A stretch of 64,000 bases of DNA from Halorubrum vacuolatum (lineage in GTDB: Archaea; Halobacteriota; Halobacteria; Halobacteriales; Haloferacaceae), in contig NZ_FZNQ01000010.1 of the NCBI RefSeq assembly GCF_900188065.1, positions 40,353 through 104,352 on the forward strand. The letters are read 5' to 3'. Positions 19,532-60,674 of the stretch are shown one piece after another. The notes beneath the pieces were generated by a model. It worked only from the letters and a program-made list of their open reading frames with translations, was not told the DNA's origin and did no database searches. The translations under genes were made by a program, and so were the position numbers. Numbering within the stretch: position 1 is the stretch's first letter; every line of letters starts with the position of its first letter.

Positions 19532-19640
19532 CCTCCCCAGCCTCGGCGGGCGGGCGCCGGGTGGTCCGGCGCCCGCCCACCTCCCTCGCGCGGTTGCTCC
19601 TCGCGCCCGTCCATACGGGCGCTCGGAGGCGCGCGCCGAC
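19532..19640 (-). repeat. Structured intergenic element, copy A (two-hairpin family)
   Basis: Read on the minus strand: gtcggcgcgc (19640-19631), hairpin 1 with an 8-bp stem GCGCCCGT/ACGGGCGC (19603-19622), the conserved strand GCGCGAGGGAGG (19591-19580), hairpin 2 with a perfect 13-bp stem and 5-nt loop (19548-19578), then CGAGGCTGGGGAGG (19545-19532). Two further copies (57571-57686 and 60571-60674) share order and conserved strands but have different stems. TATA-like ttatatac (19669-19676) lies upstream and could drive transcription. The remainder of the 19345-19745 gap holds the tandem repeat and another TATA-like sequence near 19710. Confidence 0.7.
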
Positions 19641-19745
19641 TGCGCTCGCTGGATTGCGCTAGCTGAGGTTATATACCTCGTTCGAGCTGTTATACACGCT
19701 CCCCGCGGGTTTATATACCGCCTCGGCCACGGACGTCGCTCCGGC

Positions 19746-20525
19746 TTATCCGATCACGCGGTCGATCTCGCCGAGATGGTCGAGGACGTAATCCGGCTGG
19801 AGTTCGCTTTTCGCCAGCGTCTCCTCGTCGGTGATCCCCGACCGGACGAGCACCGTGGTCATGCCCGCGCGCTCGCCCAGCGCGATATCGGTGTCGAGCC
19901 GATCGCCGACGACGAGGCAGGCTTCCGGCGGGTGGGCGAGCCGCTCTCGGACGAACTCGACCGTGGGCTCGGAGGGCTTTCCGAGGACGATATCCGGTGC
20001 GCGGTCGGCGACGGCCGCCACGGATCGGATCATCGCCCCGGAGCCGGGCACGTCGCCCTCGGGCGCGGGAATGACGAGGTCCCGGTCCGTGCCGATAAAT
20101 GGGATCCCCCGATCGAGCGCCCACAGCGCCGTTCGGAGGTCGTCGTAGCCGAACTCGCGGTCGATGGAGACGACGAGCGCGTCGGCGTCGCTGTGGGTGT
20201 CGGTGAGCGAGAGGCCTGCCGCCGTGAGCTGGTCCAAAAGCCCCTCCTCGCCGATCACGAGCAGGTCGTCCTCAGCATGATACTCCCTCAAGTACTTCGT
20301 CGTGAGCGTGCCCGCGGTGAACACGCGGTCGGCGTCGACATCGTATCCGGCCCGGCCGAGCCGATCGATGTACGCCGTCGCCGGCTTCGTCGGGTTGTTC
20401 GAGACGAAAAGCGGGTCGATACCCGCCCGCGTGAGCCGATCGAAGCCCTCGGGTGCGCCCGGGATCGGGTCGTTCCCGCGGACGACCGTGCCGTCCACGT
20501 CGAGGACCGCGCCACGGTATTCCAT
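19746..20525 (-). CDS. HAD-superfamily phosphatase, NagD-like (class IIA)
   Basis: 259 residues from the ATG at 20525 (MEYRGAVLDVDGTVVRG). HAD motif I is DVDGTVVRG, motif II is the Ser/Thr of FVSNNPTKP, the C2 cap sits between residues ~75 and 175, and the end carries GKPSEPTVEF and VGDRLDTDIALGERAGM (motifs III and IV). Members dephosphorylate sugar phosphates, nucleotides or glycerol phosphates. The extra 55 codons upstream to 20690 overlap RNase HII and are not family-like. Confidence 0.9.
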   Translation of the reverse strand: MEYRGAVLDVDGTVVRGNDPIPGAPEGFDRLTRAGIDPLFVSNNPTKPATAYIDRLGRAGYDVDADRVFTAGTLTTKYLREYHAEDDLLVIGEEGLLDQLTAAGLSLTDTHSDADALVVSIDREFGYDDLRTALWALDRGIPFIGTDRDLVIPAPEGDVPGSGAMIRSVAAVADRAPDIVLGKPSEPTVEFVRERLAHPPEACLVVGDRLDTDIALGERAGMTTVLVRSGITDEETLAKSELQPDYVLDHLGEIDRVIG

Positions 20526-20629
20526 GTTCCGTTTTGGGGTGGATGCGACCTGAGGGTTCCGACTCGGCGGTCCCACCCGACCCCGACACCGCGCGTCGCT
20601 CGCCGCATCGCCCCCATGCGATCGGCCAG

Positions 20630-21415
20630 TTAAAAATCGCCGAGCCCGGCCTGCTCGTTCGCCGCGAGCACGTCCGCACAGGTCGACCACGACCGTCTGG
20701 CACAGTCGGGGACGTCTCCGTGGTCGGCCACGTACGCCTCGAGGAAGCGACGTGTCGTCGGGTCGCTCGGGTAGCCGCTCCCAACGCCGTCATAGGCCGG
20801 GTACGCCGCGTCGATGGCGGCCATCCGGTCGTCCCGTACGACCTTCGCGACGACGCTGGCGGCCGCGACCACGGGATCGTCGGCGTCCGCGCCGTGTCGA
20901 GCGGTCACGTCGACGGTTCCTTTGGGGGCCGGGATCGGTTCGTCCGGGTCGGCCGCTGACCTTTCGGGGGTGTCGCGGCCGTGGCTCTCGACCGCCACGA
21001 ACCGCTGGAGTACGGTCGCGCTGTCGGACGGTTCTGTGTCACCCGCTCCACCCTCGCCGATTACGTGGTCGCGAAGCCGCCGGGCGAACCGGTTCTCGCT
21101 CGTGTCGCCCGCGTCGGCGATCACGCGATCTTCCGGGTCCGCGACACTCCGCACAGCGGCCGCCTGTGCGAGGACGGTGAGCGTGTTCATGTCGGTCTCC
21201 GGCGAGTCGATAGCGGCCGGTTCGACGGTCGCGACGGCGACTCGCACGGTTGACCGACCGCGAAGTTCGGCGTCGATCGCCTCGCGTCTCGCGGGTGCGA
21301 CACGCTTTGAATCGTCCACGTCATCCGGAAGATCGGCGGGATCCGCACGGACGGCGGCGGCGATCATCGGCCCGAGCACCGGTCCCTTTCCGGCCTCGTC
21401 GACTCCGATATACAC
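20630..21415 (-). CDS. rnhB: Ribonuclease HII
   Basis: Cleaves RNA in RNA-DNA hybrids. The N-terminus YIGVDEAGKGPVLGPM contains the catalytic Asp-Glu pair, DDSKRVAP follows, and the late Asp lies in VIADAGDTSENRF. I place the start at GTG 21415: the TATA-like ctatatatt (21446-21438) is then ~27 bp upstream and the N-terminus is the short one usual for the family. The GTG at 21430 is in frame and adds five residues but is only ~10 bp from the TATA. An acidic insert (~125-165) is halophile-specific. The 3' end is ~105 bp from the NagD-like start. Confidence 0.92.
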   Translation of the reverse strand: MYIGVDEAGKGPVLGPMIAAAVRADPADLPDDVDDSKRVAPARREAIDAELRGRSTVRVAVATVEPAAIDSPETDMNTLTVLAQAAAVRSVADPEDRVIADAGDTSENRFARRLRDHVIGEGGAGDTEPSDSATVLQRFVAVESHGRDTPERSAADPDEPIPAPKGTVDVTARHGADADDPVVAAASVVAKVVRDDRMAAIDAAYPAYDGVGSGYPSDPTTRRFLEAYVADHGDVPDCARRSWSTCADVLAANEQAGLGDF

Positions 21416-21437
21416 GTCATTTGCGTACACACCGCGG

Positions 21438-21446
21438 AATATATAG
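21438..21446. promoter_or_regulatory. Shared TATA-like element between rnhB and rtcB
   Basis: The sequence aatatatag reads as a TATA box in both directions. On the minus strand it is ~27 bp upstream of the chosen rnhB GTG; on the plus strand transcription would begin near 21470, giving rtcB a ~45-nt leader. Confidence 0.5.
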
Positions 21447-21515
21447 CTTCAGATGGGCGATCGGTGTTCGCTGCCGGACGCAACGCCCTTGAGTTCGGCC
21501 GGCGAACGCCGACGT

Positions 21516-23024
21516 ATGACCACACGCGAGTTCGACGGGATCCGACTGGAGAAGGTGCGCGAGCATGTCTGGGAGATCCCCCGCGAGGGAGGAATGAACG
21601 TGCCCGCACGCGTGCTCGCCAGCGAGCAGCTCCTGGAGGCCATCGCCGACGACAAGACCCTCCAGCAGCTTCGAAACGCGACCCATCTCCCCGGTATCGT
21701 CGAACCGGCCATTTGCATGCCCGACGGCCACCAAGGCTACGGCTTCCCCGTCGGCGGGGTTGGGGCGATCGACGCCGAGGTCGGCTGTATCTCGCCCGGC
21801 GCGATCGGCTACGACATCAACTGTGGCGTCCGGATGGTTCGAACGGACCTGACCTACGACGATGTCCGGGGACGCGAGGACGAACTGGTCGAGGCGCTCT
21901 TCGAGGCGGTCCCCTCCGGGCTCGGCGGCGGTGGCGTCATCACCGGCACCGCGGACGCGATCGACGGCGCGCTCGAACGCGGCGTGGAGTGGGCCGTGGA
22001 GGCCGGCTACGGGATCGAATCCGACTGCACCAACTGTGAGGACGGCGGCCGCCGTCCGGACGCTCGCCCCGAGTTCGTCTCCCAGAAGGCGAAAGACCGC
22101 GGGCGCAACCAGATGGGGTCGCTCGGCTCGGGCAACCACTTCCTGGAGGTCCAGCGCGTCACCGACGTCTTCCGCCCGGACGTCGCCGAGGCCTACGGCC
22201 TCGCTGCCGACGGGATCGTCGTCCTGATCCACTGCGGCAGCCGTGGACTCGGCCATCAGACCTGCAACGACTACCTCCGACGGATCGAACAGACACACGG
22301 CGACCTCCTCGCGGAGCTTCCGGACAAGGAGCTCGCGGCCGCGCCCGCCGGCTCGGACCTCGCCGAGGAGTACTACGGCGCGATGGGCGCGTGTATCAAC
22401 TTCGCGTGGGTGAACCGCCAGCTGATCACCCACCGCACGCGCGAGGTCTTCGGCGAGGTCTTCGACGCCGATCCGATCGACGATCTCGGAATGACGCTCC
22501 TCTATGACGTCGCCCACAACATCGGCAAAAAGGAGACCCACGAGGTCGGCGTCGGCCCCGACGGCCTCCCCGCCGTCGGTAACGCGGTCGTCGACCGGAC
22601 CGAACGCGATCTCTACGTCCATCGGAAGGGCGCGACTCGGGCGTTCCCGGCGGGCCACGAGGACGTCCCCGCGGCCTATCGCGAGGTCGGCCAGCCCGTC
22701 ATCATTCCGGGCAGCATGGGCGCGGGTTCGTACGTCCTTCGCGGCGGCGCGGCGTCGATGGACGTCTCGTTCGGCTCGACCGCCCACGGTGCCGGCCGCC
22801 TCATGAGCCGAACGCAGGCGAAACGGGAGTTCCAGGGCGGCGACGTTCGACGGGAGCTCAGGGACGGGCAGGCGATCCACGTGAAAGCGCAGTCGGGTGC
22901 AACGATCGCCGAGGAGGCACCCGGCGTCTACAAAGACGTCGACGAGGTCGTCCGCGTCAGCGACGACCTCGGCATCGGCGACAAGGTCGTGCGCACGTTC
23001 CCCGTCTGTAACATCAAAGGTTGA
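21516..23024 (+). CDS. rtcB: tRNA-splicing ligase RtcB
   Basis: 502 residues from the ATG at 21516. It joins 2',3'-cyclic-phosphate and 5'-OH RNA ends, for example tRNA exon halves, using GTP and Mn2+. Visible are CMPDGHQGYGFPVGGV, GYDINCGVRM (Asp100 and Cys103, metal ligands), GSLGSGNHFLEVQ, HCGSRGLGHQ, and FGSTAHGAGRLMSRTQAK, whose His is the guanylylated residue. The C-terminus FPVCNIKG is canonical. No intein is present. Its partner archease is ~7 kb downstream at 29833. The in-frame ATG at 21453 adds a non-family leader. Confidence 0.97.
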   Translation: MTTREFDGIRLEKVREHVWEIPREGGMNVPARVLASEQLLEAIADDKTLQQLRNATHLPGIVEPAICMPDGHQGYGFPVGGVGAIDAEVGCISPGAIGYDINCGVRMVRTDLTYDDVRGREDELVEALFEAVPSGLGGGGVITGTADAIDGALERGVEWAVEAGYGIESDCTNCEDGGRRPDARPEFVSQKAKDRGRNQMGSLGSGNHFLEVQRVTDVFRPDVAEAYGLAADGIVVLIHCGSRGLGHQTCNDYLRRIEQTHGDLLAELPDKELAAAPAGSDLAEEYYGAMGACINFAWVNRQLITHRTREVFGEVFDADPIDDLGMTLLYDVAHNIGKKETHEVGVGPDGLPAVGNAVVDRTERDLYVHRKGATRAFPAGHEDVPAAYREVGQPVIIPGSMGAGSYVLRGGAASMDVSFGSTAHGAGRLMSRTQAKREFQGGDVRRELRDGQAIHVKAQSGATIAEEAPGVYKDVDEVVRVSDDLGIGDKVVRTFPVCNIKG

Positions 23025-23081
23025 GCGTCCGCTCGCCCGAGCGACCTTTTATATCCGATACCGCGGCCAGTCCTGCCCGTC

Positions 23082-23813
23082 ATGTCCAGCACATCCGCCG
23101 GTTCGCCGGATCCGTCGGTCGCCTCAGCCATCGAAACCCCCTCACGTCGCACCGTTCTCGCCACCGGTGCCGGGTTCCTCGGTCTCGGAGGCGCGGGGAT
23201 GGCGACGCTCGCGACAGTCCCCACTCCCGCGGTCGCCGTCGAGGGCGACCCGGCCGCCTTCGAGGTCGGGGAGGCACCGACGGTGACGAGCAACGAGGGA
23301 CGGATCTCCTCGGTATATCTCTCCCCCGAGATCGCCGTCACGTGGACGGACTTCAGCGACGGCGTGGAGACGGTCGAGGTGACCCTCGCGGCCGGCACCG
23401 ACGAGGGTATCGACGTTATCTACGAGGAGACGCTCCATGCCGAACGGCCGGATGCGACCCCCGGCGATGTCGGTTCGATCTCGCCGCTGGAGGACGCCTT
23501 CGAGGATCCCGACGATCCCTCCATTCCCGATCTCGCAGCGGCGTTCGACGCCGTCGACGGTGGGATCGTCGTCACCCTTGACCGTGCGGACGTGACCGAA
23601 CGCGGCGAGACGGTCACAAGCGACGCGCTGAGCGACGCCACCCTCGCGGGCGGGGAGTCGACGGCGACCGAACTCGACATCGTGTTGCGTGTGACCGTCC
23701 AGGGCGGCGAGGACGAAGCGAGCGTCGTCGAAACCTCGACGGTGGAGGTCGGCGTCACCAACCCCGCGGGCGACGTCGACGCGGGCGGGACGGTGGGGGT
23801 GGACGCCTCCTGA
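23082..23813 (+). CDS. Tat-exported protein of unknown function
   Basis: 243 residues. The N-terminus has a twin-arginine signal: polar ~20 residues, then SRRTVLATGAGFLGLGG and a hydrophobic stretch ending near AVAVEG (~53). The mature part is acidic and beta-rich, with no Cys or metal motif I recognise. A TATA-like tttatatcc (~23047) sits ~30 bp before the ATG, fitting a leaderless transcript. The protein is probably secreted or cell-surface attached. Confidence 0.72.
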   Translation: MSSTSAGSPDPSVASAIETPSRRTVLATGAGFLGLGGAGMATLATVPTPAVAVEGDPAAFEVGEAPTVTSNEGRISSVYLSPEIAVTWTDFSDGVETVEVTLAAGTDEGIDVIYEETLHAERPDATPGDVGSISPLEDAFEDPDDPSIPDLAAAFDAVDGGIVVTLDRADVTERGETVTSDALSDATLAGGESTATELDIVLRVTVQGGEDEASVVETSTVEVGVTNPAGDVDAGGTVGVDAS

Positions 23814-23883
23814 CGGTGGACGCTCCCGTCGGTGGCTGTCCCCTGACGGTTGTCGTCCCCTCACCCAGGACGTTCCACAGCAC

Positions 23884-24204
23884 TCACTCGCCATCCCGTC
23901 CGCTGCGGGCTTCGCGACCGAGATGTTCCTCGACGGCGGCGACCTTGTCCGCGGCGGTCGTCTCGGCGGTCCGTTTGTCGTCGACCTTTAAATACGTCGA
24001 GACGCGGTCGCCGTCGACCGCCTTGTGTGCGGCCGCGACCGCCGCGAGCAGGGTATCGATGTCGTCGGCTTCGATCACGGTTCCCATCGGATTCGTCTCG
24101 TAGGTGATGTCGAACTCGTCGAGGGCGGCCACCGCCTTGGCCACCTCGCCGGACATGCTCCCCTCGATAACCGGTGCAACGCTCAACAGGGCGACGACGG
24201 TCAT
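23884..24204 (-). CDS. MTH1187-family thiamine-binding protein
   Basis: 106 residues from the ATG at 24204 (MTVVALLSVAPVIEG). The ferredoxin-like fold of the MTH1187/YkoF group is indicated by FDITYETNPMGTVIEADD (~32-49) and the helix that follows. Members bind thiamine or hydroxymethylpyrimidine. The C-terminal tail is charged. The frame extends upstream to 24408 without family similarity. Confidence 0.87.
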   Translation of the reverse strand: MTVVALLSVAPVIEGSMSGEVAKAVAALDEFDITYETNPMGTVIEADDIDTLLAAVAAAHKAVDGDRVSTYLKVDDKRTAETTAADKVAAVEEHLGREARSGRDGE

Positions 24205-24295
24205 GTCGGGATCGAGGCGTTCCGGGGGTAAAATCGTTGCCAGCGGCGGTGGATGATACCCGTCCCGCCGCCCTTCGCGGTCGGCGTGTCGCGGC

Positions 24296-25234
24296 TCACT
24301 CGCGATCGAAGACGTCCCGGAGGAACGAGAGCTGGTGGCCGACCGCCGGCTCGAAATCCGCGCCGAACGCCGAGAAGTGGTCCATCGGCATCGAGACGAA
24401 CGTCCCACGGTCGAGCCGCTCGGCCGCCTCGGCGACCCGTTCGGCGGGTGCGACCGGATCGTCGGTGCCGGCGAGCAGGAGCGTCGGCACGGTCACCTCC
24501 TCGACCCGTTCGATCGGCCGGTGTCCGAGCAGGCCGAGAAGCGATCTCGCGGGGGTCTCGTTCCGCCAGCGCGACTCCCGGTCGACGAGGTCGAGATAGC
24601 CGCGTTGTGTTCCGGGCTCGGTGAGGAGCGCGAACTCCTCGGTCCCGCCGACGACGGGAACCGACCCGCCGCGGCCGATCCGTCGCCCGAGTCGGTCACG
24701 AACCCCCGTGAGAACCCCGCCGGCCACGTAGCGTCCGCCCCGCGAGCGACCCAGCTGACGGCCGTCGAGCAGCGGGGCGACCCCGATCACGGCATCGACG
24801 TCACGGCGCTCGACGGCGAGCGAGATGGCGGTGCCGCCGGAAAGCGACGTTCCCCAGAGCACGCGTTTGGACCCCAGCGCGTCGACCCGGGAGAGTCGAT
24901 CCAGCGCGGCCGCCTGATCCTCCCGGTGACGCGCCGGCGAGACGGTTTGGTCGTCGCCGTCGGAGTCCCCGAACCCGCGATGATCGAAAGAGAAGGCGGC
25001 GTAGCCGGCGTCGGCGAACCGCTCGGCGACGGCCGGATAGCCGAAGACCCGCTCGGCGGCGAGCCCCGGAGCCATCACGATCGTCGGCGGATCGTCGGTT
25101 CCGGGCGGCAGATACAGCGTTCCCCGCGCCGTCTCGCCGTCGACGTCGAACGCGAGGGATCTGGTGGCGAATCGCTCGCGCGGCGGTCGTTCCACCCGGC
25201 GCTGGGCGCGGTTAACGGGTACTCGTCGGGTCAC
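24296..25234 (-). CDS. Alpha/beta hydrolase
   Basis: 312 residues from GTG at 25234, chosen because it overlaps the upstream gene's stop as GTGA. Hydrolase features are an oxyanion region MAPGLAAER, FSFDHRGFGDSDG, the nucleophile elbow GTSLSG (Ser), a late Asp in AGTDDPVAP and the catalytic His in MDHFSAF. The order matches serine hydrolases of the dienelactone hydrolase/esterase type. It is the second gene of a two-gene unit. Confidence 0.87.
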   Translation of the reverse strand: MTRRVPVNRAQRRVERPPRERFATRSLAFDVDGETARGTLYLPPGTDDPPTIVMAPGLAAERVFGYPAVAERFADAGYAAFSFDHRGFGDSDGDDQTVSPARHREDQAAALDRLSRVDALGSKRVLWGTSLSGGTAISLAVERRDVDAVIGVAPLLDGRQLGRSRGGRYVAGGVLTGVRDRLGRRIGRGGSVPVVGGTEEFALLTEPGTQRGYLDLVDRESRWRNETPARSLLGLLGHRPIERVEEVTVPTLLLAGTDDPVAPAERVAEAAERLDRGTFVSMPMDHFSAFGADFEPAVGHQLSFLRDVFDRE

Positions 25235-25599
25235 GGATCGGATCCCTCCTCGTCGACGTGGGTCAGCGTCTGCAGTACCCGCGTCGAGAACTCCACCTCG
25301 GTCAACTCGCCGTCGATCAACGCCTCGAACCACTCGCCTTCGGCGGCCCACTCGCCGAGCACGTCACCCGGTGACCGTACCACCGTCGCCTCCACACGGG
25401 TCGGCTCCCAGGCGCCGGCCTCCGCGCGCTCGATGAGCGCGTTGAGCGCCCGTCCCACCTCACGACGATGGACCTCCCGGCCGGGAAACGCGGTCATGTA
25501 CGTCAGCTCCAGCGGGTCCTCGTTCGCGATCGACTCGACGCTGATCCCGTAGCTTCGGAGGGTCGGCTCCACATCGGCCGTGGACTCGTCGCCGGTCAT
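25231..25599 (-). CDS. Conserved haloarchaeal protein of unknown function
   Basis: 122 acidic residues, no membrane segment, no motif I recognise. A TATA-like cgatttatccc (25621-25630) lies ~26 bp upstream of the ATG at 25599, fitting leaderless transcription. Its stop overlaps the GTG start of the hydrolase, so it may modulate or simply be co-expressed with it. Confidence 0.75.
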   Translation of the reverse strand: MTGDESTADVEPTLRSYGISVESIANEDPLELTYMTAFPGREVHRREVGRALNALIERAEAGAWEPTRVEATVVRSPGDVLGEWAAEGEWFEALIDGELTEVEFSTRVLQTLTHVDEEGSDP

Positions 25600-25742
25600 A
25601 CCGATCGGTCGTCGGGGTGGGATAAATCGATACCGGCGCGGCCGACGCTCGTCGTCTCAAGAAAGCCGCAGACGGGCGACCGCCAAACGGCGGCCGGGAT
25701 CGGTTCTGTCAGAGGCACACGATGTTCCCGTGCGGCCGATCG

Positions 25743-25758
25743 ATACACCGCGGTGTAT
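25743..25758. promoter_or_regulatory. 16-bp perfect palindrome overlapping a TATA-like sequence
   Basis: ATACACCG/CGGTGTAT is a perfect inverted repeat and abuts tatataaataaa (25757-25768). On the minus strand it would sit directly after the TATA, where a repressor would block initiation. The 25600-25939 gap otherwise holds no gene I can support; it is the 3' flank of the rhodopsin gene and the 5' flank of the 122-residue protein gene. Confidence 0.5.
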
Positions 25759-25939
25759 ATAAATAAAGCATTGGTGAATTAAAGTTCACTCGAATAGTTG
25801 ATAATTTACGTCGGCGGTTCGTTCGTCATCCCCCCCATGACTGTGGCTACGTCGGCGCGCTCCAGCACTCCGGATGGCGGCCGTCCAGCGTTCGCCGCCG
25901 TCCAGCGTTTGTCGTCGTTCAACTCGCTAGCGTCCCGTT

Positions 25940-26707
25940 TCAGTCCGCTCCCGTCGGTTCGTGGCCGGCACGGTCGCGTGATGGGACGGATCCCACCCCG
26001 TCCTCCGGTGTGTGTATCTCGTCACGAAGGTATGCGAGCGCGTCGATCCCCGCGACCGCGACGACGACGAACCCGACCTTCGAGACGACATCGAGATAGA
26101 CGTAGACGAGCATCTCCGTCGAGGTCGTCAACAGGCCGAGGCCGGTCGGCGCGAGCACCCAGACGATCGGATAGAGCGTCCACAGCACGATGGTGATGTT
26201 CCGCAGCGTGCCGAACACCGCACGAACGCGGTCGTCTTTCGCGCTCGCCGCCGCCGGCAGCTTCACCAACAACCCGTAGACGAGCCCGAGGTACGCGGCG
26301 ACGCCCACGGCGAACGCCCCCCACGAGAGCGGTCCGGTCGTGAGGACCGCGACGGCCCCGGCGACGATGATCAGCACGTCGATGATTATCAGCGTCGCCA
26401 ACACCCGCTGTGACGGCTGCGCGAGCAGCACGAGGTACAACAACAACAGCGGCGTCGTCAGGAGCCAGTCGACGTAGCGGGCGGTCTCCAGCGTACCGAC
26501 GGCGGTGACGATCGTTCCGATGTCGAGCGCCATGAACACGTACGCCACGGCCGCGATCCCCGTGATCCCGACGAGCGTCGCGTAGTGTATCGCCTCGCCG
26601 GGTCGATCGTCCCCCGAGCGGGTGAACCAGATCCAAAGCGGCGGCACCGTTCCGGCGGCCATCGTGAGGACGCCGAGCCACGCCCAGAGGGTGGTATCGA
26701 CCGGCAT
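25940..26707 (-). CDS. sop2: Sensory rhodopsin II (phoborhodopsin)
   Basis: A 255-residue seven-helix retinal protein. Helix C reads ARYVDWLLTTPLLLLYL: Arg77 and counter-ion Asp80 are kept, while the proton-donor position is Tyr91, so it is a sensor rather than a pump. Retinal Lys210 lies in YLDVVSKVGF. Tyr179 and Tyr204 match Tyr174 and Tyr199 of Natronomonas SRII; the position of Thr204 is Ser209. The transducer gene is immediately upstream (1-bp gap), the normal htrII-sopII order. It mediates repellent response to blue-green light. Confidence 0.92.
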   Translation of the reverse strand: MPVDTTLWAWLGVLTMAAGTVPPLWIWFTRSGDDRPGEAIHYATLVGITGIAAVAYVFMALDIGTIVTAVGTLETARYVDWLLTTPLLLLYLVLLAQPSQRVLATLIIIDVLIIVAGAVAVLTTGPLSWGAFAVGVAAYLGLVYGLLVKLPAAASAKDDRVRAVFGTLRNITIVLWTLYPIVWVLAPTGLGLLTTSTEMLVYVYLDVVSKVGFVVVAVAGIDALAYLRDEIHTPEDGVGSVPSRDRAGHEPTGAD

Positions 26708-26708
26708 C

Positions 26709-28337: not shown

Positions 28338-28489
28338 CTCTCGGCATGTGATCGTCCGCCCAAATGTATAACTGTCAGTCGCCAATTTTTGAAAATGATA
28401 CTCGGTTCGGCCGCTTCGACTGGGATCCGTTCTATCCTCCCGTCATCGGGTCCGGAACGGTTTTTCACCCCGACCGGTGAGGGGAAGAC

Positions 28490-29329: not shown

Positions 29330-29422
29330 TTGCCGGAGCGACCCGATCGGTCGAATCCACCCGCTTGGGCGGCTCCGTCCCGAGTCGAACGGTTCAAGTA
29401 TTCGCTGGCTGTCCGTTACGAT

Positions 29423-51698: not shown

Positions 51699-51776
51699 CA
51701 CACTCGATACGTTCACGTGTACGGATCGCTTTAGCCGACGCTCGGAGCGTGGCGGTTGAGGAAAAACGGTCTCGTT

Positions 51777-52043: not shown

Positions 52044-52044
52044 G

Positions 52045-52224
52045 TTAGGGCCCCCGGAAGCTGCAGTCGGGACACTCATACAGGTTGCTCTGTTTGCGGC
52101 ACTTCGAGCACCGGTGGATGGTCGTTCCGCAGTCCGGGCAGGCGAACGTCGCGGCCGTCATGCCGGCCACCTGGATCCCACAGGAGACGCACTTCTTGGC
52201 GGCTCCGGATTCACTCTTGCTCAT
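52045..52224 (-). CDS. HVO_2753-like zinc-finger micro-protein
   Basis: 59 residues from the ATG at 52224 ([12 protein letters not shown]). Four CxxC pairs (CVSCG, CPDCG, CSKC, CPDC) give eight zinc ligands for two zinc ions, the pattern of Haloferax volcanii HVO_2753, a structurally characterised 59-residue protein linked to motility and biofilm. It lies directly upstream of aEF1B. Confidence 0.92.
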
Positions 52225-52305
52225 ACCCGTTCTCACCGGCGCGTGACTTTTAACCGTTGTTCTTTGCCCGCGCTGCGGCTCGCACGGCGAACACGTGTGT
52301 CCGAC

Positions 52306-53541
52306 TCACCAGAGCATCAACGGCCCGATGAGCACGCCCATCAGGTGCACCCGTCGCGCCCCAAACCGCGGCGGCACGAGCCCGAGCAGCGCGGAGACGA
52401 CGAACACGCCGACGCCGAAGGCCCCCGCGAAGGCGTACGAGAGTCCGACGAGGAGGAGCAGTACCGTCACCGACAGCCGTGTGTAGTCCGCGTTGCCGAC
52501 GACCCGCAGATACGCGTCGCCGAGGAGCAACACGAGCGTGAATCCACACAGGGCCGCGATGGCGACCGCGACCAACAGGACGGGCATCGCGAGCGGCACC
52601 GCCGCACGCTCCACCGCGACGGTCACCCCCGTTCTGGGCGTCCCGAGCGCCGCGAGCGCGAACAGCGCGAAGACGGTATTCGCCGTGTTGGCCCCGCTCG
52701 TGGCGACGACGAACCCGCGGTCGGCCTCCCGACGTGGCACGGCCGGAAGCGCCGCGATGGCGGCGATCGCCGCGGAGACGCCGGGGATGTACCCGACGAT
52801 CGCGCCCGCGATCGATCCGGCGCCCGCCGTCACCCCGAGGTCGCGTTTTCCCATCGTGAGCCGGGCGTCGGACTGTGGCGGCACGCCGTCGCCGCCGATC
52901 GCGTCGATCAGCACGGGTGCGCCGAACAGTCCGGTGAAAAGCGGGGCGAGGATCCCGCCGGCATCGAGCGGCGCGTCCGGATCGATATCGAGCGTCGCCA
53001 TCCCGAGGGCGGCACTCGCGAGGAACGCCGCAAAACCCACGACCGCGCCCCGCCGTGAGGACTCAGTGATGACGAGGAAGACGACGACGCCCGCGAGCAG
53101 CCACGGCAGGTTCGCTCTCACCGTTGGATACCAGCGGATCATCGCCCACGTGATCGGGATGGCGAGCGGGACCGCGAGCGCGACCGCGATCCCAGACCCG
53201 ACCGCCGAGAGCCGAAGCGCCTCGCGGCCGCGACCCGCGACGACCAGCCGATGGCCGGGAAGCGCTGCGACCGCGGTCGCCGCGTCGGGTACGCCGAGCG
53301 CGAGCGCCGGGACGATGTCGAGGAAGGAGTGAACCACGCCGGCCGCGAGGATCGCGATCCCGACGAGCAGCGGGTCGGCCGGGATCGACGGGGCGATCCC
53401 CGCGAGCAACAGCGCGAAGTTATTGGCGTGGAGCCCCGGAACCAGCCCGCTTATCGTCCCGAGGGCAGCCCCGCCGATGAGGAACGCCAGCGCCTGCAGG
53501 GTAAAGCCCGGATCGACGACGGGGTGGACCAGTGCGTCCAT
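52306..53541 (-). CDS. TctA-like tripartite tricarboxylate transporter permease
   Basis: A 411-residue polytopic protein with ~10-12 helices. Two family repeats begin ISGLVPGLHANNFALLLAGI and VGYIPGVSAAIAAIAAL (gating/substrate loops of the TctA/DUF112 family). The C-terminus ends in a membrane helix. No TctB or TctC binding protein is nearby; haloarchaeal TctA-only loci are common and the substrate is unknown. Confidence 0.85.
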   Translation of the reverse strand: MDALVHPVVDPGFTLQALAFLIGGAALGTISGLVPGLHANNFALLLAGIAPSIPADPLLVGIAILAAGVVHSFLDIVPALALGVPDAATAVAALPGHRLVVAGRGREALRLSAVGSGIAVALAVPLAIPITWAMIRWYPTVRANLPWLLAGVVVFLVITESSRRGAVVGFAAFLASAALGMATLDIDPDAPLDAGGILAPLFTGLFGAPVLIDAIGGDGVPPQSDARLTMGKRDLGVTAGAGSIAGAIVGYIPGVSAAIAAIAALPAVPRREADRGFVVATSGANTANTVFALFALAALGTPRTGVTVAVERAAVPLAMPVLLVAVAIAALCGFTLVLLLGDAYLRVVGNADYTRLSVTVLLLLVGLSYAFAGAFGVGVFVVSALLGLVPPRFGARRVHLMGVLIGPLMLW

Positions 53542-53663
53542 CGCGACGAGGTGGCCGCGGCTTCACTCATAAGGTGTACGCCAGCGTAGGTGCTTATAGC
53601 GTGTACGGCAGCGTTGGCACTCACAACGTGGACGCCGCGTGGGACGCGATGTGAGAAACGAAC

Positions 53664-53861
53664 TTACGCCGCCTGAGCCGCCTGTGACGCCTTCTTTCGG
53701 GTAATGTAGCCGGCGATTCGGTTGCGAACGCCCTTCGATTCGACGGTGGTGAGCGCCGTGACGCTCTCCTTGTTCGTTTCGAAGTCTGTGTTGAACGAGT
53801 CCGGATAGCGCTCCAAGAGCACGTTCGCGAGCTGTTTGATGTACTTGGGCTTGATGGCCAT
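53664..53861 (-). CDS. rps17e: 30S ribosomal protein S17e
   Basis: 65 residues with the family sequence [20 protein letters not shown] and [20 protein letters not shown]. The C-terminal AAQAA is family-typical. The gene is 86 bp downstream of the DUF447 gene on the same strand. Confidence 0.97.
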
Positions 53862-53947
53862 ACCGAGCGATACCGCCGGGCCGAACTAAAAGGAATCGTT
53901 CCCGCGACGGTGCCGTCGTGGCCGTCACTCGGGCCGTTTTGGGAGAT

Positions 53948-54640
53948 TCACCGTCGCGCCCGCCAGTCGGTCACCTCGTCGATCCGGGCGAAGGCCTCAC
54001 GTTCGCGGGGGCCCCCGCAGCGGTCGACGACGTCCGCGAAGTACGCGAGGCGATCCAGGAGGACATCGGTCGAATACGTCGGGACGTCGAGTCGCGAGGC
54101 CGCGACGGTCGCGTCGATCACCGCACCGAATCCACGGTTGATCGTCTGCACATGGGTCCGCTCGACGGCACAGTCGACCGGCTCCAGCATCCACGTCCGG
54201 ATCGTCGTGTCACCCTCCGTTCGCGCCTCACGCTCTTCGACGCGCACCTCGACCCACGCGTCGGCCGACGGGAGCACGGGCTCGTCGACCTCATGGACGG
54301 TTAACGCCGCCTCGACGAAGGTCCGCGGGTCGGTGACGAACTGGACGAACCCACCACCGCGTTCCGTGAAATTCCGCCACGTTCTGGTTCGTCCGTAGGT
54401 TCGAGCGGTGACGGGCGGTTCCGTTCCCTCGGCGGCATCGCTCGTCTCGGTCGTCTCACTCGCCGTGTCGGCTCCGCCCGACGCGTCGGATGCGTCCGGC
54501 GCGTGGAGCCCAAGCGCGGCGGCGTTCCACCGGCCGTTCGGTCCGAGCGTCGTCACGACGGACTCCGTCACTCCATGCAACTCGACCGGCCAGCCGGAGG
54601 GTGATCCGGACGTTCGGTTCCTCCCGTCGTCCCCGCTCAT
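53948..54640 (-). CDS. DUF447 family protein (FMN-binding split-barrel type)
   Basis: 230 residues. The DUF447 core is GVTESVVTTLGPNGRWNAAALG (~24-45), ARTYGRTRTWRNFTERGGGF (~79-98), and TVAASRLDVPTYSTDVLLDRLAYFADVV near the end. An acidic linker (~48-75) is a halophilic insert. It is the last of a four-gene operon (cofD, DUS, citG-like, DUF447) whose neighbours all overlap by 4 bp. DUF447 is also found in the methylotroph tetrahydromethanopterin gene cluster. Confidence 0.87.
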   Translation of the reverse strand: MSGDDGRNRTSGSPSGWPVELHGVTESVVTTLGPNGRWNAAALGLHAPDASDASGGADTASETTETSDAAEGTEPPVTARTYGRTRTWRNFTERGGGFVQFVTDPRTFVEAALTVHEVDEPVLPSADAWVEVRVEEREARTEGDTTIRTWMLEPVDCAVERTHVQTINRGFGAVIDATVAASRLDVPTYSTDVLLDRLAYFADVVDRCGGPREREAFARIDEVTDWRARR

Positions 54641-55599
54641 GCCCGAACCTCCAGCCCACGACGAAGCGCGACGTAGAGGCCCGCACAGACGAGGTCCGCG
54701 GTCGTACCGGGGTTTATCCCCCCGTCGACGAACGCCTCGGCCAGCGTCGTTGCGGCCGCGAGATCGACGTGGTCCGCGAGCGGGTCGGGGGGGTCAGCCG
54801 CCTCGTCGTCCGAGGACGCATCGATCCCCTCGATCACCGAGGCCGCCCGGCGGCTCGTCTCGCGAGCCACGTCGGCGTCATGGTTCGTCGCCACGAGCGT
54901 GTCCGGCTCGCGGGCGAGCTGATAGATAAACGCCCGTGCCGCCCGATCCGTCACCGCCCCCTCGTCTGCGAGGATCCGCTCCGCGATCCGGACGGTTCGG
55001 GGGAAGCCCTCGACCCACTCCTGAGCGTTGCGATCGGGGATTCCGCCCGGTTCCGCACCGAGTTCCATCACCTCACGGAGCGTTACGCCGCGCTCTCGGA
55101 GCGTGGAGGCGGCGCTCCCTCCGCGTCGAACGTCGAGCGCGTCGGCCGCCACCGGTGGGTCGTCGACGGCGACGTCGACGTGTTCGAAGGCGGTATAAAA
55201 AGCGACCGCGTCCGCGACGGTCGTCCGTCGCACCACCCGATCGACCGCCTCTGGAGTGACGGTCCCGCTGGGCGCGACGGTGTCGTCGACCGTCGCCGCG
55301 AGTAGCGGGGTGAGCAGCAATAGACAGCCGAACTGGGTGTTCGTCCCCGCCCGGTCGGCCATCCCCCGGACTGCCCGCTCGAAGGAAGGACCGAGTGGCT
55401 CGCCGCGAGCGGCCGATTCGAGCCCGGCCCGTGCGCCGATCGACCCGCCGAGAAACGATTCGAATCGGAGATCGGTGAGGTCGCGCTCGCGGTCGACGTT
55501 TCCGGGCTTCGGGGTCCCTGCGACCTCCAGCAGGAGCGCGAGCGTCGCGTCGTCCACGGGATCACGGCCGTCGGGATCGCCGTTCGGCCGCCCCGTCAT
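54637..55599 (-). CDS. CitG/MdcB-family triphosphoribosyl-dephospho-CoA synthase-like
   Basis: 320 residues. Family segments are TPKPGNVDRERDLTDLRFES (N-terminal) and FGCLLLLTPLLAA plus the C-terminal FVDGGINPGTTADLV. In bacteria this fold makes the prosthetic group of citrate or malonate lyase. No such lyase genes are here, so the archaeal role is different and unknown. Overlaps DUF447 and the DUS gene by 4 bp each. Confidence 0.85.
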   Translation of the reverse strand: MTGRPNGDPDGRDPVDDATLALLLEVAGTPKPGNVDRERDLTDLRFESFLGGSIGARAGLESAARGEPLGPSFERAVRGMADRAGTNTQFGCLLLLTPLLAATVDDTVAPSGTVTPEAVDRVVRRTTVADAVAFYTAFEHVDVAVDDPPVAADALDVRRGGSAASTLRERGVTLREVMELGAEPGGIPDRNAQEWVEGFPRTVRIAERILADEGAVTDRAARAFIYQLAREPDTLVATNHDADVARETSRRAASVIEGIDASSDDEAADPPDPLADHVDLAAATTLAEAFVDGGINPGTTADLVCAGLYVALRRGLEVRA

Positions 55600-56483
55600 C
55601 GCGTCCCCCTCGGCGCGTCGGCCTCGCCCGGGAGCCGGCCAGTCCGCCAGTCGGCGATCGCGTCGGCGACCGCACGGATCGCCTCCGGGTCGGCTGGGCG
55701 GAACGGCCGCCCGACCCCCGCCGAACGGGTCGGGCGGGCGATGCTCACCGCGTCGGCTCCGTATGCCGCGTACTCGGTGACCGTCCGGCGGTCACGGACC
55801 CCGTTGTTGGCGACGAGGGTGAGCCCGAGGTCCTCGCCGTCGATCGCCTCCCGCAACTCGGCGATGGTGGCTTCGGAGTCCATCGCGTCGACGTGGATCC
55901 AGTCGGCACCGGCCCGCGCGATCGTCCGCGCGACGGCGACGAGGTCGACGCCGGACACCTCCGCGCGCACCTTGACGCTCGTCGTCGCGCCCGTGTCGGT
56001 GGCTGCCTTGACGTGTTCGTGAAGCCGTTCGTCGTCGCGGAGGAGCGACTCCCCGCACCCGGCAGCCCGAAGCTCCGGCTGTCGGCAGTGGGCGTTCACC
56101 TCACAGATCGCTCCATGGGCGGCACAGACGGCGGCGGCCTCACGGATCGGCGCCGGCGTGGCGCTTCGGAGGTTGAATCCGGGGCGGGGGGTCGTGTCTT
56201 CCCCTCGTTCGTCCCGTCCCCCGGCCACCGCCGAGAGCTGCTCGTCGATGAACCGGATCGGCGAGTCGGGGAGGAACTCGTTTCTGTCGCGTGCGACGAG
56301 TTCCTCGGCCGCACCTCTGCTTTTGGCGTCGAGCGCGATCCCGCCGAGGATCGCGACGTCGACGTGGGGTGCGAGCCCGCGGGCCCACGCCGCGTCCGAC
56401 TCGCCGCTGAGGCTGGCGGCCACGAGGAACGGGGTTGGCGGGGTGGAATCGTGCATGCGACCGCCGCCAGCGTCCGCGCTCAT
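55596..56483 (-). CDS. tRNA-dihydrouridine synthase-like (TIM-barrel FMN) protein
   Basis: 295 residues from the ATG at 56483, or 286 from the ATG at 56456 ([18 protein letters not shown]). The DUS catalytic sequence is present as [20 protein letters not shown] (~128-147): the Asn-x-x-x-Cys arrangement is altered to NAHCRQPEL, and the rest reads [14 protein letters not shown] and [13 protein letters not shown]. This is the divergent archaeal DUS type, seen in cofactor gene clusters. It overlaps cofD and the citG-like gene by 4 bp. Confidence 0.78.
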
Positions 56484-57475
56484 GCGACCGCCTCCAGCGC
56501 CCGATCGCAGGCACGGGCGACGCGCTCGGCGTCGTCGGGACCGTCGATCCGCGTGTCGGTTCGCTCGACGTGGCGGGCGAGGTCGGTCGGATCCGACTCG
56601 TCGAGGACGAACGCGTCCGCGAACGGGTACGCCTCGGCGACGCCCGCCGTCGACGGCTCGTAGCCGACGCCCTCCATCAACTCTGCGGCGGGTCCCGAAA
56701 AGACCCGATCGCCGACGAACGGCGAAACCGCGACGACCGGGGTGGCCTCCAGCGCAGCCTCGAATCCCGGAAGCGCGAGCATCGGGCCGATGCTCGTCAC
56801 GGGGTTTGACGGGCCGATCACGACCGGGTTCACCAAGGCCTCCCGGACCGCCTCGGTCGGCTCCGCACGCTCCGCGCCGCGGAACTCCACGTCGTCGACG
56901 GCGGGCTCGGCCCGCCGGGCGACCCAGTACTCCTGAAAGTGGATCGTCCCGCCCGCCTCGGTGTGGATGAGCGTGGCGACGGGATCGTCGGACATCGGGA
57001 GGAGCGTATAGTCGAGTCCGAACGCCCGCGCGAGCGTCCGGGTGACGGCCGTGAGCGTGTGGCCCTCATCGAGGAGGCCGGTTCGGGTGAGGTGGACCGC
57101 GCGGTCGCGGTCGCCGATCTCCATGAACTCGGCGACGCCCGAGAATCGTCGCCAGCGGGCGATCTCCCGGCCCGACGTTTGGGCTGCCTCGTCGAGATAG
57201 CGGGGACCACTCTCCAAGCCTGCAGCCTCCGCAAGTCGCGAGAGCTCCGTGTGCGTCTCCGTGGTGTCGCCGTCGATCCCCCACCACCGGTCGCGGTCGA
57301 GGACGTCGCCGCCGGCGAAGAGGACGGTGTCGACGTCCGGGCAGACGAGGTGGCCGGCCAGCTCGACGTCGTCGCCGGTGTTGGCGACGACGGTCAGCTC
57401 GTCGGCCGGATACAGGCGCGCCGCGCCGTCGAGCAGCTTCGGCGTTCCCGTTCCCCCCGCAAGGAACGTGATCAT
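56480..57475 (-). CDS. cofD: 2-phospho-L-lactate transferase CofD
   Basis: 331 residues from the ATG at 57475 ([20 protein letters not shown]). It transfers the phosphoenolpyruvyl or 2-phospholactyl group onto FO, forming F420-0. [30 protein letters not shown] and [18 protein letters not shown] are family motifs. A TATA-like tatataaac (57537-57529, minus) is ~55 bp upstream. First gene of the cofD-DUS-citG-DUF447 operon. Confidence 0.95.
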
Positions 57476-57570
57476 GGAGAATGAAAAGCGACCCCGGGGT
57501 TTGTATCCTCGGCTCCGTGTCGGCGAGCGTTTATATACGCAGGTTCGCCCCGATCGCCCCGACCACGACC

Positions 57571-57686
57571 GCCGGCGCGCCCGCTCGGGCCTTTTCAAAG
57601 GTCCGAGCGGAGCGCGAGGGAGGGTGGCTGCGGCCGCGGGATTGCACCGCGGCCGCAGACGCCCGAGGCTGGGGAGGCGTGAGGCT
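57571..57686 (+). repeat. Structured intergenic element, copy B (two-hairpin family)
   Basis: gccggcgcgc (57571-57580); hairpin 1 with a 13-bp stem including one G-T wobble (57582-57609, CGCTCGGGCCTTT arm); GCGCGAGGGAG (57612-57622); hairpin 2, a perfect 12-bp stem CTGCGGCCGCGG with its complement (57628-57658, 7-nt loop); CGAGGCTGGGGAGG (57664-57677); then cgtgaggct. A TATA-like tttatata (57530-57537) lies ~41 bp upstream. Another TATA-like tttatata sits near 57735 between inverted arms cggtat/ataccg. These fill the 57476-57839 gap. Confidence 0.72.
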
Positions 57687-57839
57687 CGCGCTGACCCGTG
57701 GTCGTTTCGCGATGGGGGGCCTCTCCGGCGACGGTATTTATATACCGGCCTCGGCGATCGGTGATCCCAATCTCCGGGACACAGCGACCAGCAGCAGTGT
57801 TTGACATCCTCCGCCTCGATCCGCCGCTCCCTGATCTCC

Positions 57840-58736
57840 TTACTCGTCCACGGCGACACTCGTCTGCATCGCGTCCGTATTAAACGCGCTTCCCGCGCCG
57901 TCCGCGTCGAGGACGATGACGCCCGCGCCCGACCCCGTCACCGCATCGAACTCCTCGATCGCCAACTCGGCGGCCGTCTGCGCGTCGAGCCCAGATTCCA
58001 GGTACGAGACCGCCCGCTCGGTCAACGTCACGCGGGCGATATCCTCGCCCGCGCCGGTCGCGCTCGCGCCACCCGCGTCGGTACAAAAGAATCCCGAGCC
58101 GACCTGCGGCACGTCGCCGACGCGGCCCGCGAGCGCGAACGATCGGCCGCCGGTGGAGGTCGCGGCCGCGAACGTCTCACCGTCGCCGGCGACCGCGCCG
58201 ACGGTGTCGTGATCGGGGGCCTCGCGTTCGGAGCGCTCCCCCGCGTCGTCATCCCCCGACCCGAACCGGCTCGCGAGCCAGTCGAGGTGCGCCTCGATCC
58301 CCTCGTTCGGCGGGTCCTCCGACTCGTAGCGCTCGCGCTTTTCGTCCGTGAGCAGGTCCACGCCTGTCTCGATCCCGAACGCGTCCGCGAGGGCGACGGC
58401 GTGCTCGCCGGCGACGAAGATATGGGGCGTCTCCTCCGCGACGACGCGGGCGACCGAGACGGCGTGCTCGACGCCGGGCATCGAACAGACCGCGCCGATC
58501 CGCCGGTCCGCGGTCATCACGCCGGCGTCCGTGCGGACGACGCCGTCCGATTGCACCGCGCCGCCGACGCCCGCGTTGAACCGCGGGCTCGATTCGAGCA
58601 CCCGAACCGCCGCTTCCACCGCATCGAGCGGGGTCCCGGCCGCTGCGCCCGCCTTGGCCGCCTCGTCGAGCACCGCTTGCCGCGGTTCCGGTTGCTCGGG
58701 GGCACTCCCGGCACCGCCGTGGACGATCACGCGCAT
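57840..58736 (-). CDS. Isoaspartyl peptidase/L-asparaginase (Ntn hydrolase)
   Basis: 298 residues. It cleaves isoaspartyl peptides or asparagine after self-cleaving before Thr178 (sequence [10 protein letters not shown]), which becomes the N-terminal nucleophile. N-terminal [11 protein letters not shown] and C-terminal [28 protein letters not shown] are family segments. The gene is on the opposite strand to copy B and ends 153 bp past it. Confidence 0.93.
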
Positions 58737-58939
58737 GGCTGTGGGTCCGCCGACGGTGAGTTAAAAGGGTCGAAAGTGGCGGCCCGGAAACACGCCGTCG
58801 ACGGGTGGGGTGATCGAACCTCCGGCAATCGTTGCACCGATCCACCGAAACCGGGGGATGGCGGTCGGATCGTCGTCGTCGTGCGACCTAGGGGAAAACG
58901 GCAGGCACTTTAGGTCGGTACGAGAAGCCACGAACGTTC

Positions 58940-60202
58940 ATGAGCTACGACAAAGTCGAAGTCCCCGAGGACGGTGAGGCCATCACGCTCGCCGACGAGG
59001 AGACCGGCGAGTTGGACGTCCCGGAGAACCCCATCATCCCGATCATCCACGGCGACGGGATCGGCACGGACGTCGGCCCCGCCGCCCAGCAGGTGCTCGA
59101 TGCGGCCGCCGAGGCCACCGGGCGCTCCATCGCGTGGATGCGCGTTTACGCCGGCGCCTCCGCCCGAGACAAGTACGGCGAGAACCTCCCCGAGGACACC
59201 GTCTCCGCGATCCGCGAACACCGCGTCGCGATCAAGGGCCCGCTCACGACCCCCGTCGGATCCGGGTTCCGCTCGCTCAACGTCGCGCTGCGAAAGACGC
59301 TCGACGCGTACGCGAACGTCCGACCGACCTACTACCTCGATGGCGTCCCCTCGCCGGTCAAAGCGCCCGAGAAGATGGACATGGTCATCTTCCGTGAGAA
59401 CACCGAGGACGTGTACGCCGGGATCGAGTGGGAGGCCGGCACCGACGAGGTCGAGACGGTGCGTGCGTTCGTCGAGGACGAGATGGGCGTCGATGACGTC
59501 ATCCACGACGGCCCGGTCGGCATCGGGATCAAGCCGATCACCGAGTTCGGATCCAAGCGGCTCATCCGTGAGGCGTTCGATTACGCGCTTGAGAACGACC
59601 GTGACTCCGTCACGCTCGTCCACAAGGGGAACATCATGAAGTTCACCGAGGCGGCGTTCCGCGACTGGGGCTACGAGCTCGCCGAGGAGGAGTACGGCGA
59701 CGAACTCATCACCGAGGACGAACTGTGGGACGAGCACGACGGCGACCAGCCCGAGGGGACGGTCGTGGTGAAAGACCGGATCGCGGACAACATGCTCCAG
59801 CAGGTGCTGACCCGGACCGATGAGTACGACGTGATCGCGACGATGAACCTGAACGGCGACTACTTCTCCGATGCCGCTGGCGCACAGATCGGCGGACTCG
59901 GTATCGCGCCCGGGATCAACCGCGGACACGGTCGTGCGCTCGCCGAGCCGGTTCACGGCTCCGCGCCCAAGTACGCCGGCGAGGACAAGGTGAACCCGAC
60001 CGCGATGATCCTCTCAGGTCGCGAGATGCTCGATTACCTCGGCTGGAAGGACGCCGCGGACCTCGTCCGTGACGCCGTCGAGGAGACCATCTCCTCGGGG
60101 AAGGTCACCTACGACCTCCACCGCCAGATCGACGGCGGCGAGAAGCTCGCGACGAGCGAGTTCGCCGACGCCATCGTCGAAAATATCGAAAAGCTGTCGT
60201 AG
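58940..60202 (+). CDS. icd: Isocitrate dehydrogenase (NADP)
   Basis: 420 residues. It oxidises isocitrate to 2-oxoglutarate in the TCA cycle. IIPIIHGDGIGTDV, KGPLTTPVGSGFRSLNVALR (substrate Ser and Arg residues), FRENTEDVYAGIEW, and ANLNGDYFSDAAGAQIGGLG-like C-terminal metal-binding (MNLNGDYFSDAAGAQIGGLG) are visible. The length is standard. A hairpin and T-run lie just after the stop. Confidence 0.96.
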   Translation: MSYDKVEVPEDGEAITLADEETGELDVPENPIIPIIHGDGIGTDVGPAAQQVLDAAAEATGRSIAWMRVYAGASARDKYGENLPEDTVSAIREHRVAIKGPLTTPVGSGFRSLNVALRKTLDAYANVRPTYYLDGVPSPVKAPEKMDMVIFRENTEDVYAGIEWEAGTDEVETVRAFVEDEMGVDDVIHDGPVGIGIKPITEFGSKRLIREAFDYALENDRDSVTLVHKGNIMKFTEAAFRDWGYELAEEEYGDELITEDELWDEHDGDQPEGTVVVKDRIADNMLQQVLTRTDEYDVIATMNLNGDYFSDAAGAQIGGLGIAPGINRGHGRALAEPVHGSAPKYAGEDKVNPTAMILSGREMLDYLGWKDAADLVRDAVEETISSGKVTYDLHRQIDGGEKLATSEFADAIVENIEKLS

Positions 60203-60206
60203 ACAG

Positions 60207-60232
60207 CCTTTTTCGCTCCCAGCATAGCTGGG
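60207..60232 (+). terminator. Possible icd terminator (T-run plus hairpin)
   Basis: ccttttt at 60207-60213 is followed by the hairpin CCCAGC-ATA-GCTGGG (60218-60232). Archaeal termination mainly needs the T-run, so the hairpin is supportive only. Confidence 0.45.
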
Positions 60233-60570
60233 ACAACCGCCCTCGATGGTTATTTGCCTCACCGAGCCACCTCGCGGGCGCGTTCTATCAGGCTTGATCG
60301 CTATCTATCTCTATTGTTGTTACATCGACACTTATACCGATCGAACGCTGTGTGCTATTCGGTGACAAACCACTAATGTACGAATCCGAGCCGATCCACA
60401 CCAGCACGCGGATACCCCCTGCCACATCGATCGACCGATCGAACCAGCGCCCCGACGCAGCGTCCTCGCGCGATGACGCTCCCGTCGCCGTCAGCCGAAT
60501 CGTTCCCTCCGTACGGGACTGAGTCGATGGCGACACCCCCGTTCTCGTTTTTATAAACTGACCACTGGCG

Positions 60571-60674
60571 GTCGGCGCGCTCCGGTGAGCGCCCGGAGGG
60601 CGCGACACCGAGCGCGAGGGAGCCCACGGCTGGTTGATAAACCAGCCGTGGCGAGGCTGGGGAGGTGTGAGGCT
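60571..60674 (+). repeat. Structured intergenic element, copy C (two-hairpin family)
   Basis: gtcggcgcgc (60571-60580); hairpin 1, 10 bp with a 2-nt bulge (60576-60604); agcgcgagggag (60611-60622); hairpin 2, a perfect 12-bp stem CCACGGCTGGTT with its complement and GATA loop (60624-60651); CGAGGCTGGGGAGG (60652-60665); tgtgaggct (60666-60674). A TATA-like tttttataaa (60548-60557) lies just upstream. The rest of the 60233-60917 gap has several TATA-like sequences (60730, 60765, 60850, 60862) and a small hairpin (60822-60837), but no supported gene. Confidence 0.72.

Follow-up and report, generated by a model that had tools for sequence, protein, structure and literature searches.

Short, palindromic, non-coding repeats that occupy intergenic sites in tens to hundreds of copies are known from bacteria as the REP/BIME, ERIC and BOX families, and integron attC sites, whose stems vary in sequence, are recognized as a folded single strand. 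Haloarchaea possess transposase-free repeats of their own: Haloquadratum walsbyi is reported to carry SMR and PATE elements that reach up to 54 copies per genome, lack a target duplication (SMR-A being ~110 bp long) and may lie one inside the other, with near-identical SMR copies bounded by inverted terminal repeats and a mobilization that is left unexplained (PMC3119063). In bacterial conjugative plasmids, Frpo sequences are located upstream of SSB genes (PMC11541004). Here, we analyze a fold-back repeat of Halorubrum vacuolatum that shares some features with these systems. It was recognized in a stretch of 64,000 nucleotides (assembly GCF_900188065.1, contig NZ_FZNQ01000010.1, positions 40,353 to 104,352), called the window below, which forms part of a 3.48 Mb draft genome in 72 contigs; the window genome is the genome of H. 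vacuolatum, and G and L numbers designate the compared genomes and loci.

We tentatively prefer the explanation that the window copies are members of a scattered, modular family of fold-back repeats, and that the folding capacity of one strand is likely maintained because this strand is in the form of single-stranded DNA when the element moves or exerts its function. The spread would proceed via a single-stranded intermediate with the help of some enzyme.

A dispersed repeat across the genus Halorubrum

The original prediction described three copies of a two-hairpin element, copy A at 19532..19640 on the minus strand, copy B at 57571..57686 and copy C at 60571..60674, both on the plus strand, and these positions, the strands and the complementary stems were all confirmed in the sequence. 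The claim of a three-copy family proved an undercount, the three being part of a set of 28 copies in the genome. The conserved 14-base strand CGAGGCTGGGGAGG occurs exactly 28 times there, vs. 0 times for the reversed pattern, and all 28 occurrences have a GGCGCG start and a GCGCGAGG strand upstream. When up to one mismatch is allowed, 34 places are found vs. 5 for the reversed control; two of the six one-mismatch places were read, L029 having no module and L030 resembling a worn copy. The exact strand is present at 12–163 copies per genome in 35/35 Halorubrum genomes (reversed control 0–2 per genome), i.e., the further copies sought in relatives exist in every Halorubrum genome tested; outside the genus it was found in 1 of 24 genomes, in 3 copies.

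A covariance model of the module, R1, built from 44 rows including copy A, matches the window at 19522–19642 (E 4.5e-8), 57569–57687 (E 4e-7) and 60569–60675 (E 1.3e-12). At E ≤ 1e-5, under strict filters and with 15 candidates scored per genome, it detects the module in 31/31 Halorubrum genomes and in 8/211 other Halobacteria. A looser limit yields 1–38 matches in each of ten outside genomes, picked for earlier matches or kinship, and the 24 outside loci that were read have the same layout as in Halorubrum, though the model itself favors such a layout. Relatives of the repeat occur in other families of Halobacteria. Copy C had no match in the plasmid and phage sets at E ≤ 1e-5, nor did the longer Halorubrum element described below match phages at E ≤ 1e-3. 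Viral carriers were considered and rejected: among 120 listed stretches with the bare 14-mer, 2 had GAGGGAG upstream, at a level resembling chance, and when the pattern was made stricter, using one gap range, a single stretch remained, a chance match without the module. In Rfam 15, the sole match at gathering score in the window is a tRNA at 10055–10138; a permissive search covering copies B and C gave overlapping matches only at E 7.3 and 2.7 (copy A lay outside that search), and ten loci that carry longer elements yielded nothing at E ≤ 0.1. A genus-wide fold-back repeat in Halorubrum is thus real and appears undescribed as far as the literature was searched, no published description being found in the open-licence literature, to which the search was limited (a paper elsewhere may exist).

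The copies of the window genome follow, with small variation, the order GGTCGGCGCG, hairpin 1, GCGCGAGGGAG, hairpin 2, CGAGGCTGGGGAGG, two bases and TGAGG or CGAGG, a GA/GA internal loop being frequent in hairpin 1. In other species, a spacer and a third, rod-like hairpin usually come after this module, the rod being delimited by ACTCAAAGGGGCAG and CTGGGGCTTTGG or by sequences close to them. The rod is present after the module in 46/55 copies of G019, a near-complete genome, and in 20/27 copies of other species, the unit with rod having a median length of 242.5 and 254.5 nt, respectively. As none of the 28 window-genome copies is followed by a rod, they represent the two-hairpin module alone. 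Short tandem arrays after the conserved strand, made of GTTGCGGTGCGG units and repeated CGTGGCTGGGGAGGGCTGAGGCGGAGGAGAG, were observed at L060, downstream of the module, and at L022.

The presence of the repeat at intergenic sites differs between species, as expected of a mobile element. At the site of copy B, an element with an intact conserved strand, the same orientation and different stems occurs in 9 of 20 other Halorubrum genomes, and two further genomes hold remnants as judged by eye (L217, L224); in G062 and G020 the site is empty, with spacers of only 51 and 78 bp. When four G019 sites were compared with four relatives, one of them, that of L244, was filled in G019 only (1/5 genomes), the flanking matches in the other genomes being 17–56 bp apart. 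We take these differences as more likely due to movement of the element than to its repeated loss. Of the 69 elements in an 800-kb portion of G019, selected around copies already known, 62 fall outside predicted genes; the neighbors of the 69 are convergent at 22, divergent at 11 and tandem at 36, without a fixed orientation. L027 and L028 have identical stems in different flanks. In G059, copy B's site (L211) also shows five or six TTATAAAC-like boxes, spaced by ~25 bp, downstream of the orthologous element.

Smaller units are nested within the element. One site of G014 holds an element like that of G011 plus three extra inserts, each consisting of two short hairpins, and in the window genome a copy at L020 carries two extra hairpins. 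Six types of such two-hairpin cassettes gave 45 pattern matches, some palindromic places being counted on both strands, and 33 of these are no more than 400 bp away from a detected element. The 12 type B matches comprise 8 at one rod site, 2 near hairpin 2 and 2 that look like chance; type A occurs in both orientations (3 and 4). Borders were read by eye, and insertion is apparently between a purine and C. A type E cassette was also seen inside the rods of two other genera (L410, L316).

Conserved pairing and a preferred folding strand

That pairing is kept through changes on both sides of a stem, as would be expected of either a structured RNA or a single-stranded DNA element, is supported by hairpin 1. 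Over nine pairs in 44 copies, 92.0% of cells are paired vs. 72.8% after shuffling, and the covariation score is 0.471 vs. 0.165, with 0/500 shuffles reaching either value; sliding the partner sharply lowers both score and pairing. The shuffles ignore relatedness among copies, and their result is therefore not a probability. The number of hairpin 1 pairs with a two-sided change, six, is not unusual by itself (126/500 shuffles reach it). For hairpin 2, the arms of a copy match at 8.84/10 positions vs. 6.77/10 when combined with the arms of other copies, a comparison that covers 76 of 83 hairpins in the best register and includes a few misread segments. In 18 rods (11 plasmid, 7 chromosomal), 17 of the 28 predicted pairs have changed on both sides, with pairing preserved, in at least one sequence.

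The plus strand, which is also the strand drawn in the original prediction, is the better folder nearly throughout: in 106/106 modules and 83/90 rods with RNA parameters, and in 102/106 modules and 74/90 rods with DNA parameters. As for the window copies themselves, RNA folding of A, B and C beats all 200 dinucleotide shuffles of each (z –6.1, –5.8 and –4.8), and with DNA parameters 1, 0 and 0 of 200 shuffles are equal or better (z –4.3, –7.0 and –6.8); their opposite strands likewise fold well, as expected of palindromes.

In copy A, read on the minus strand, the fold places hairpin 1 with its GA/GA internal loop at 19587..19635 and hairpin 2 at 19546..19580, the conserved strands GCGCGAGGGAG and CGAGGCTGGGGAGG occupying 19581..19591 and 19532..19545. 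On the plus strand, copy B has hairpin 1 at 57576..57616, GCGCGAGGGAG at 57612..57622, hairpin 2 at 57623..57663 and CGAGGCTGGGGAGG at 57664..57677, its identification being backed by the orthologous sites, and the corresponding parts of copy C lie at 60576..60616, 60612..60622, 60623..60651 and 60652..60665. Copy A is located 3' of a HAD hydrolase gene (19746–20690, minus), copy B between CofD and asparaginase genes, and copy C between the convergent genes of isocitrate dehydrogenase and SecD/F. Their placement in non-coding gaps holds, since none of them overlaps a gene with a Pfam family among the nine proteins scanned; a frame at 19467–20633 that overlaps copy A matched no Pfam family. Directly downstream of copy A, at 19440–19520, a 28-bp unit (ACGGGCGAGACTGCACGGATACGACCGA, minus strand) is present in about three tandem copies. 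Copy C sits at a synteny break (60202–60918), the isocitrate dehydrogenase and SecD/F flanks matching separate places in the other listed Halorubrum genomes.

A plasmid rod upstream of an RPA-like gene

A search with the full Halorubrum element returned 15 plasmid records in ten name groups, and in 7 of the 15, all of which were opened, the gene of a 288–299 aa protein stands upstream of the rod and divergent from it. This protein is probably RPA-like, i.e., a putative single-stranded-DNA-binding protein, to judge from faint similarities: four of the seven match OB-fold families in Pfam, all below the curated cut-off, and three have no match; the two that were also compared with NCBIfam resemble replication factor A with scores under its cut-off, and a solved chain matched by one of the proteins bears no title beyond "Conserved protein."

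Searches with the plasmid rod and with the RPA-like protein retrieved 113 and 196 records, respectively. Among the 60 listed for each, 19 are common to both; in 14 of these the rod lies upstream at 458–618 bp from the RPA-like gene, divergent in every case, in one it is 2.5 kb from the gene, and four are undecidable from the listings. Ten further rod records, picked from the list rather than at random, were opened, and the rod was upstream and divergent of an RPA-like gene in 7. The 25 opened records thus comprise 14 with the arrangement, at distances of ~400 to 550 bp, and 11 without the gene, and typing assigned MPF_T (type IV transfer) to 11/14 of the former vs. 2/11 of the latter. Near-identical plasmids occur among them (DL1 with DL31, GDY1 with H. 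marina), so that the records are not all independent.

In Halorubrum genomes, the rod was present in the examined stretch at 3 of 11 loci with a plasmid-type RPA-like gene, and of 9 loci where a chromosomal gene gave a weaker RPA-like match, 4 have an element upstream and divergent (L427, L429, L431, L432). At L427 of the window genome, the one locus tested, the neighboring gene codes for replication factor A (484 bits against a cut-off of 353). TATA-like hexamers number 1 in 8738 nt of the 14 plasmid spacers and 1 in 10382 nt of other GC-rich spacers. Their scarcity was thus dropped as evidence for a single-strand promoter, the other spacers being equally poor; this search for promoter bases covered TATA-like hexamers and not bacterial –10/–35 boxes.

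On the plasmids, the rod may serve a single-stranded stage as a site of priming, a single-strand promoter or a processing signal, and the chromosomal copies could be scattered relatives of the rod, not tied to any particular gene. To our knowledge, how these haloarchaeal plasmids handle a single-stranded stage has not been described. A bolder version, which we regard as speculative and rather doubtful, would make the rod a single-strand initiation signal, the first from an archaeon: on conjugative megaplasmids of haloarchaea, the incoming strand would fold upstream of the RPA-like gene and drive early expression or priming, and the Halorubrum repeats, the window copies included, would be a chromosomal radiation spreading as single-stranded DNA by swapping hairpin cassettes.

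Competing explanations and known systems

The loops suggest that it is as DNA, and not as RNA, that the folded strand is under selection. GNA triloops and PyGAPu tandem G-A pairs are exceptionally stable in DNA, and the apical loops of hairpins 1 and 2 include 109/217 GNA triloops and 8/217 GNRA tetraloops. In strict inverted repeats, GNA loops account for 11/36 inside elements vs. 1/50 outside. Individually folded rods contain 27 G-T vs. 43 A-C odd pairs; a general single-mismatch scan was discarded, as it was dominated by chance.

Several observations weigh against the single-stranded DNA reading. TNC loops make up 9/36 of the strict inverted repeats inside elements, hairpin 2 has GNA loops in 0/23 cases in the window genome, and genus g26 uses other loops, as judged by eye. 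Odd pairs are G-T in 27 and A-C in 7 cases in the two hairpins, and in 38 and 11 cases in the aligned rods (23 and 11 without one helix-end pair), G-T being the mismatch that RNA tolerates best. About half of the copies outside G019 have TATA boxes. No convincing two-hairpin module turned up in the RPA-linked plasmid spacers, the best score on these plasmids being 29.6 bits on L406, outside the spacer, and 22 bits on others, and the plasmid link therefore rests on the rod. No insertion boundary or target duplication could be fixed for the main element, the compared spacers being too diverged, and no mobilizing enzyme was found: the Y1 transposase (PF01797) is present in 9/12 genomes and was not found in G002, G004 and G005. 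A RAYT/REP system was rejected, since these three of the twelve repeat-carrying genomes lack a detected Y1 transposase.

A multi-copy structured RNA, in which each copy, or the rod in the longer copies, is transcribed and the plus-strand RNA functional, is a possible though less probable explanation. The strong paired covariation of hairpin 1, the two-sided changes in the rods, the excess of G-T over A-C in the two hairpins and the aligned rods, the TATA-like boxes at 15/23 copies of the window genome and 13/28 of other species, and the layout shared by several families of Halobacteria all agree with it. TATA-like boxes, which the original prediction reported upstream of the copies, do stand upstream of all three in the window (e.g., at 57530..57538 for copy B and 60550..60558 for copy C, both plus). 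They are not a general part of the unit: in a census of the 106 of 107 copies with enough flank, the start of a TATA-like hexamer falls at –50 to –15 in 15/23 copies of the window genome and 13/28 of other species and in 1/55 of G019, and at –60 to –8 in 16/23, 16/28 and 3/55, respectively. A promoter-driven non-coding RNA family was hence rejected as a general rule, most copies having no TATA box at a fixed distance (1–3/55 in G019). Between the two possibilities originally offered, a non-coding RNA family or a palindromic mobile element, the latter fits better, as the promoter is not general and as gain and loss of sites and nested cassettes are what a mobile element would leave. The wholesale replacement of stems between orthologous copies, the copy number of up to 163 per genome and the absence of an Rfam family also speak against a structured RNA. 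We thus lean toward single-stranded DNA over RNA and do not consider it proved.

It is unlikely that the repeat is a decaying, non-autonomous element without present function. Template switching inside palindromes can copy one arm onto the other, which would keep the stems perfect, and the replacement of stems en bloc as well as some perfect palindromes almost without a loop would follow naturally. Such arm correction would, however, erase the unpaired purine loops (GA/GA, GGG/GGG), which persist beside changing stems, and it fits poorly with an exact 14-base strand in 35/35 Halorubrum genomes and with one strand folding better nearly throughout. Weakest, and quite improbable, is a remnant of IS200/IS605-type transposons of the haloarchaeal PATE or SMR kind, favored by the wealth of transposase-free palindromic repeats without target duplication that have been reported for haloarchaea (PMC3119063), by the Y1 transposase in most of the twelve genomes and by IS605-like ends seen by eye beside L001 and L030, but contradicted by the 63–98 copies in the three genomes without a detected Y1 transposase and by the unrelated stems, SMR copies being commonly >95% identical in the same source, and with no shared terminal sequence shown, no search aimed at such ends having been made. 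The ends in question (GACATCC...) lie just 5' of the element at L001 and L030, and a similar sequence is present at about 57802 in the window.

A repeat that keeps its fold while exchanging its stems, in up to 163 exact copies per genome, constitutes a natural experiment on selection for nucleic-acid structure, and the plasmid rod draws attention to a locus of haloarchaeal plasmids, conserved and rich in folds, that adjoins an RPA-like gene and offers a specific sequence for study. Among the described systems, the Frpo/ssi single-strand promoters of bacterial conjugative plasmids resemble the rod in arrangement only: hairpin DNA stands upstream of a putative single-stranded-DNA-binding gene, here in 14 of 19 records, and transcription of this gene would use the folding strand of the rod as its template. 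The rod differs in being archaeal, in the weak matches by which its gene is called RPA-like, in chromosomal copies without a fixed gene partner, and in that no TATA element was seen and no promoter bases were found in the folded duplex by the search for TATA-like hexamers. Integron attC sites share the variable stems and the folded single strand; their conserved bases differ, and no integrase or gene cassettes were seen near the copies read. The likeness to the SMR/PATE elements, as they are described, lies in a transposase-free haloarchaeal repeat of similar size with element-in-element nesting. In contrast to SMR, the Halorubrum stems are unrelated, with 42 distinct hairpin-2 arms among 76 instead of near-identical copies, and no inverted terminal repeats were seen, though no aimed search was made. 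With REP/BIME, ERIC and BOX, finally, the Halorubrum repeat has in common that it is short, palindromic, intergenic, non-coding and present in tens to hundreds of copies, and it departs from all three in combining stems that vary from copy to copy with invariant intervening strands and in containing nested hairpin cassettes.

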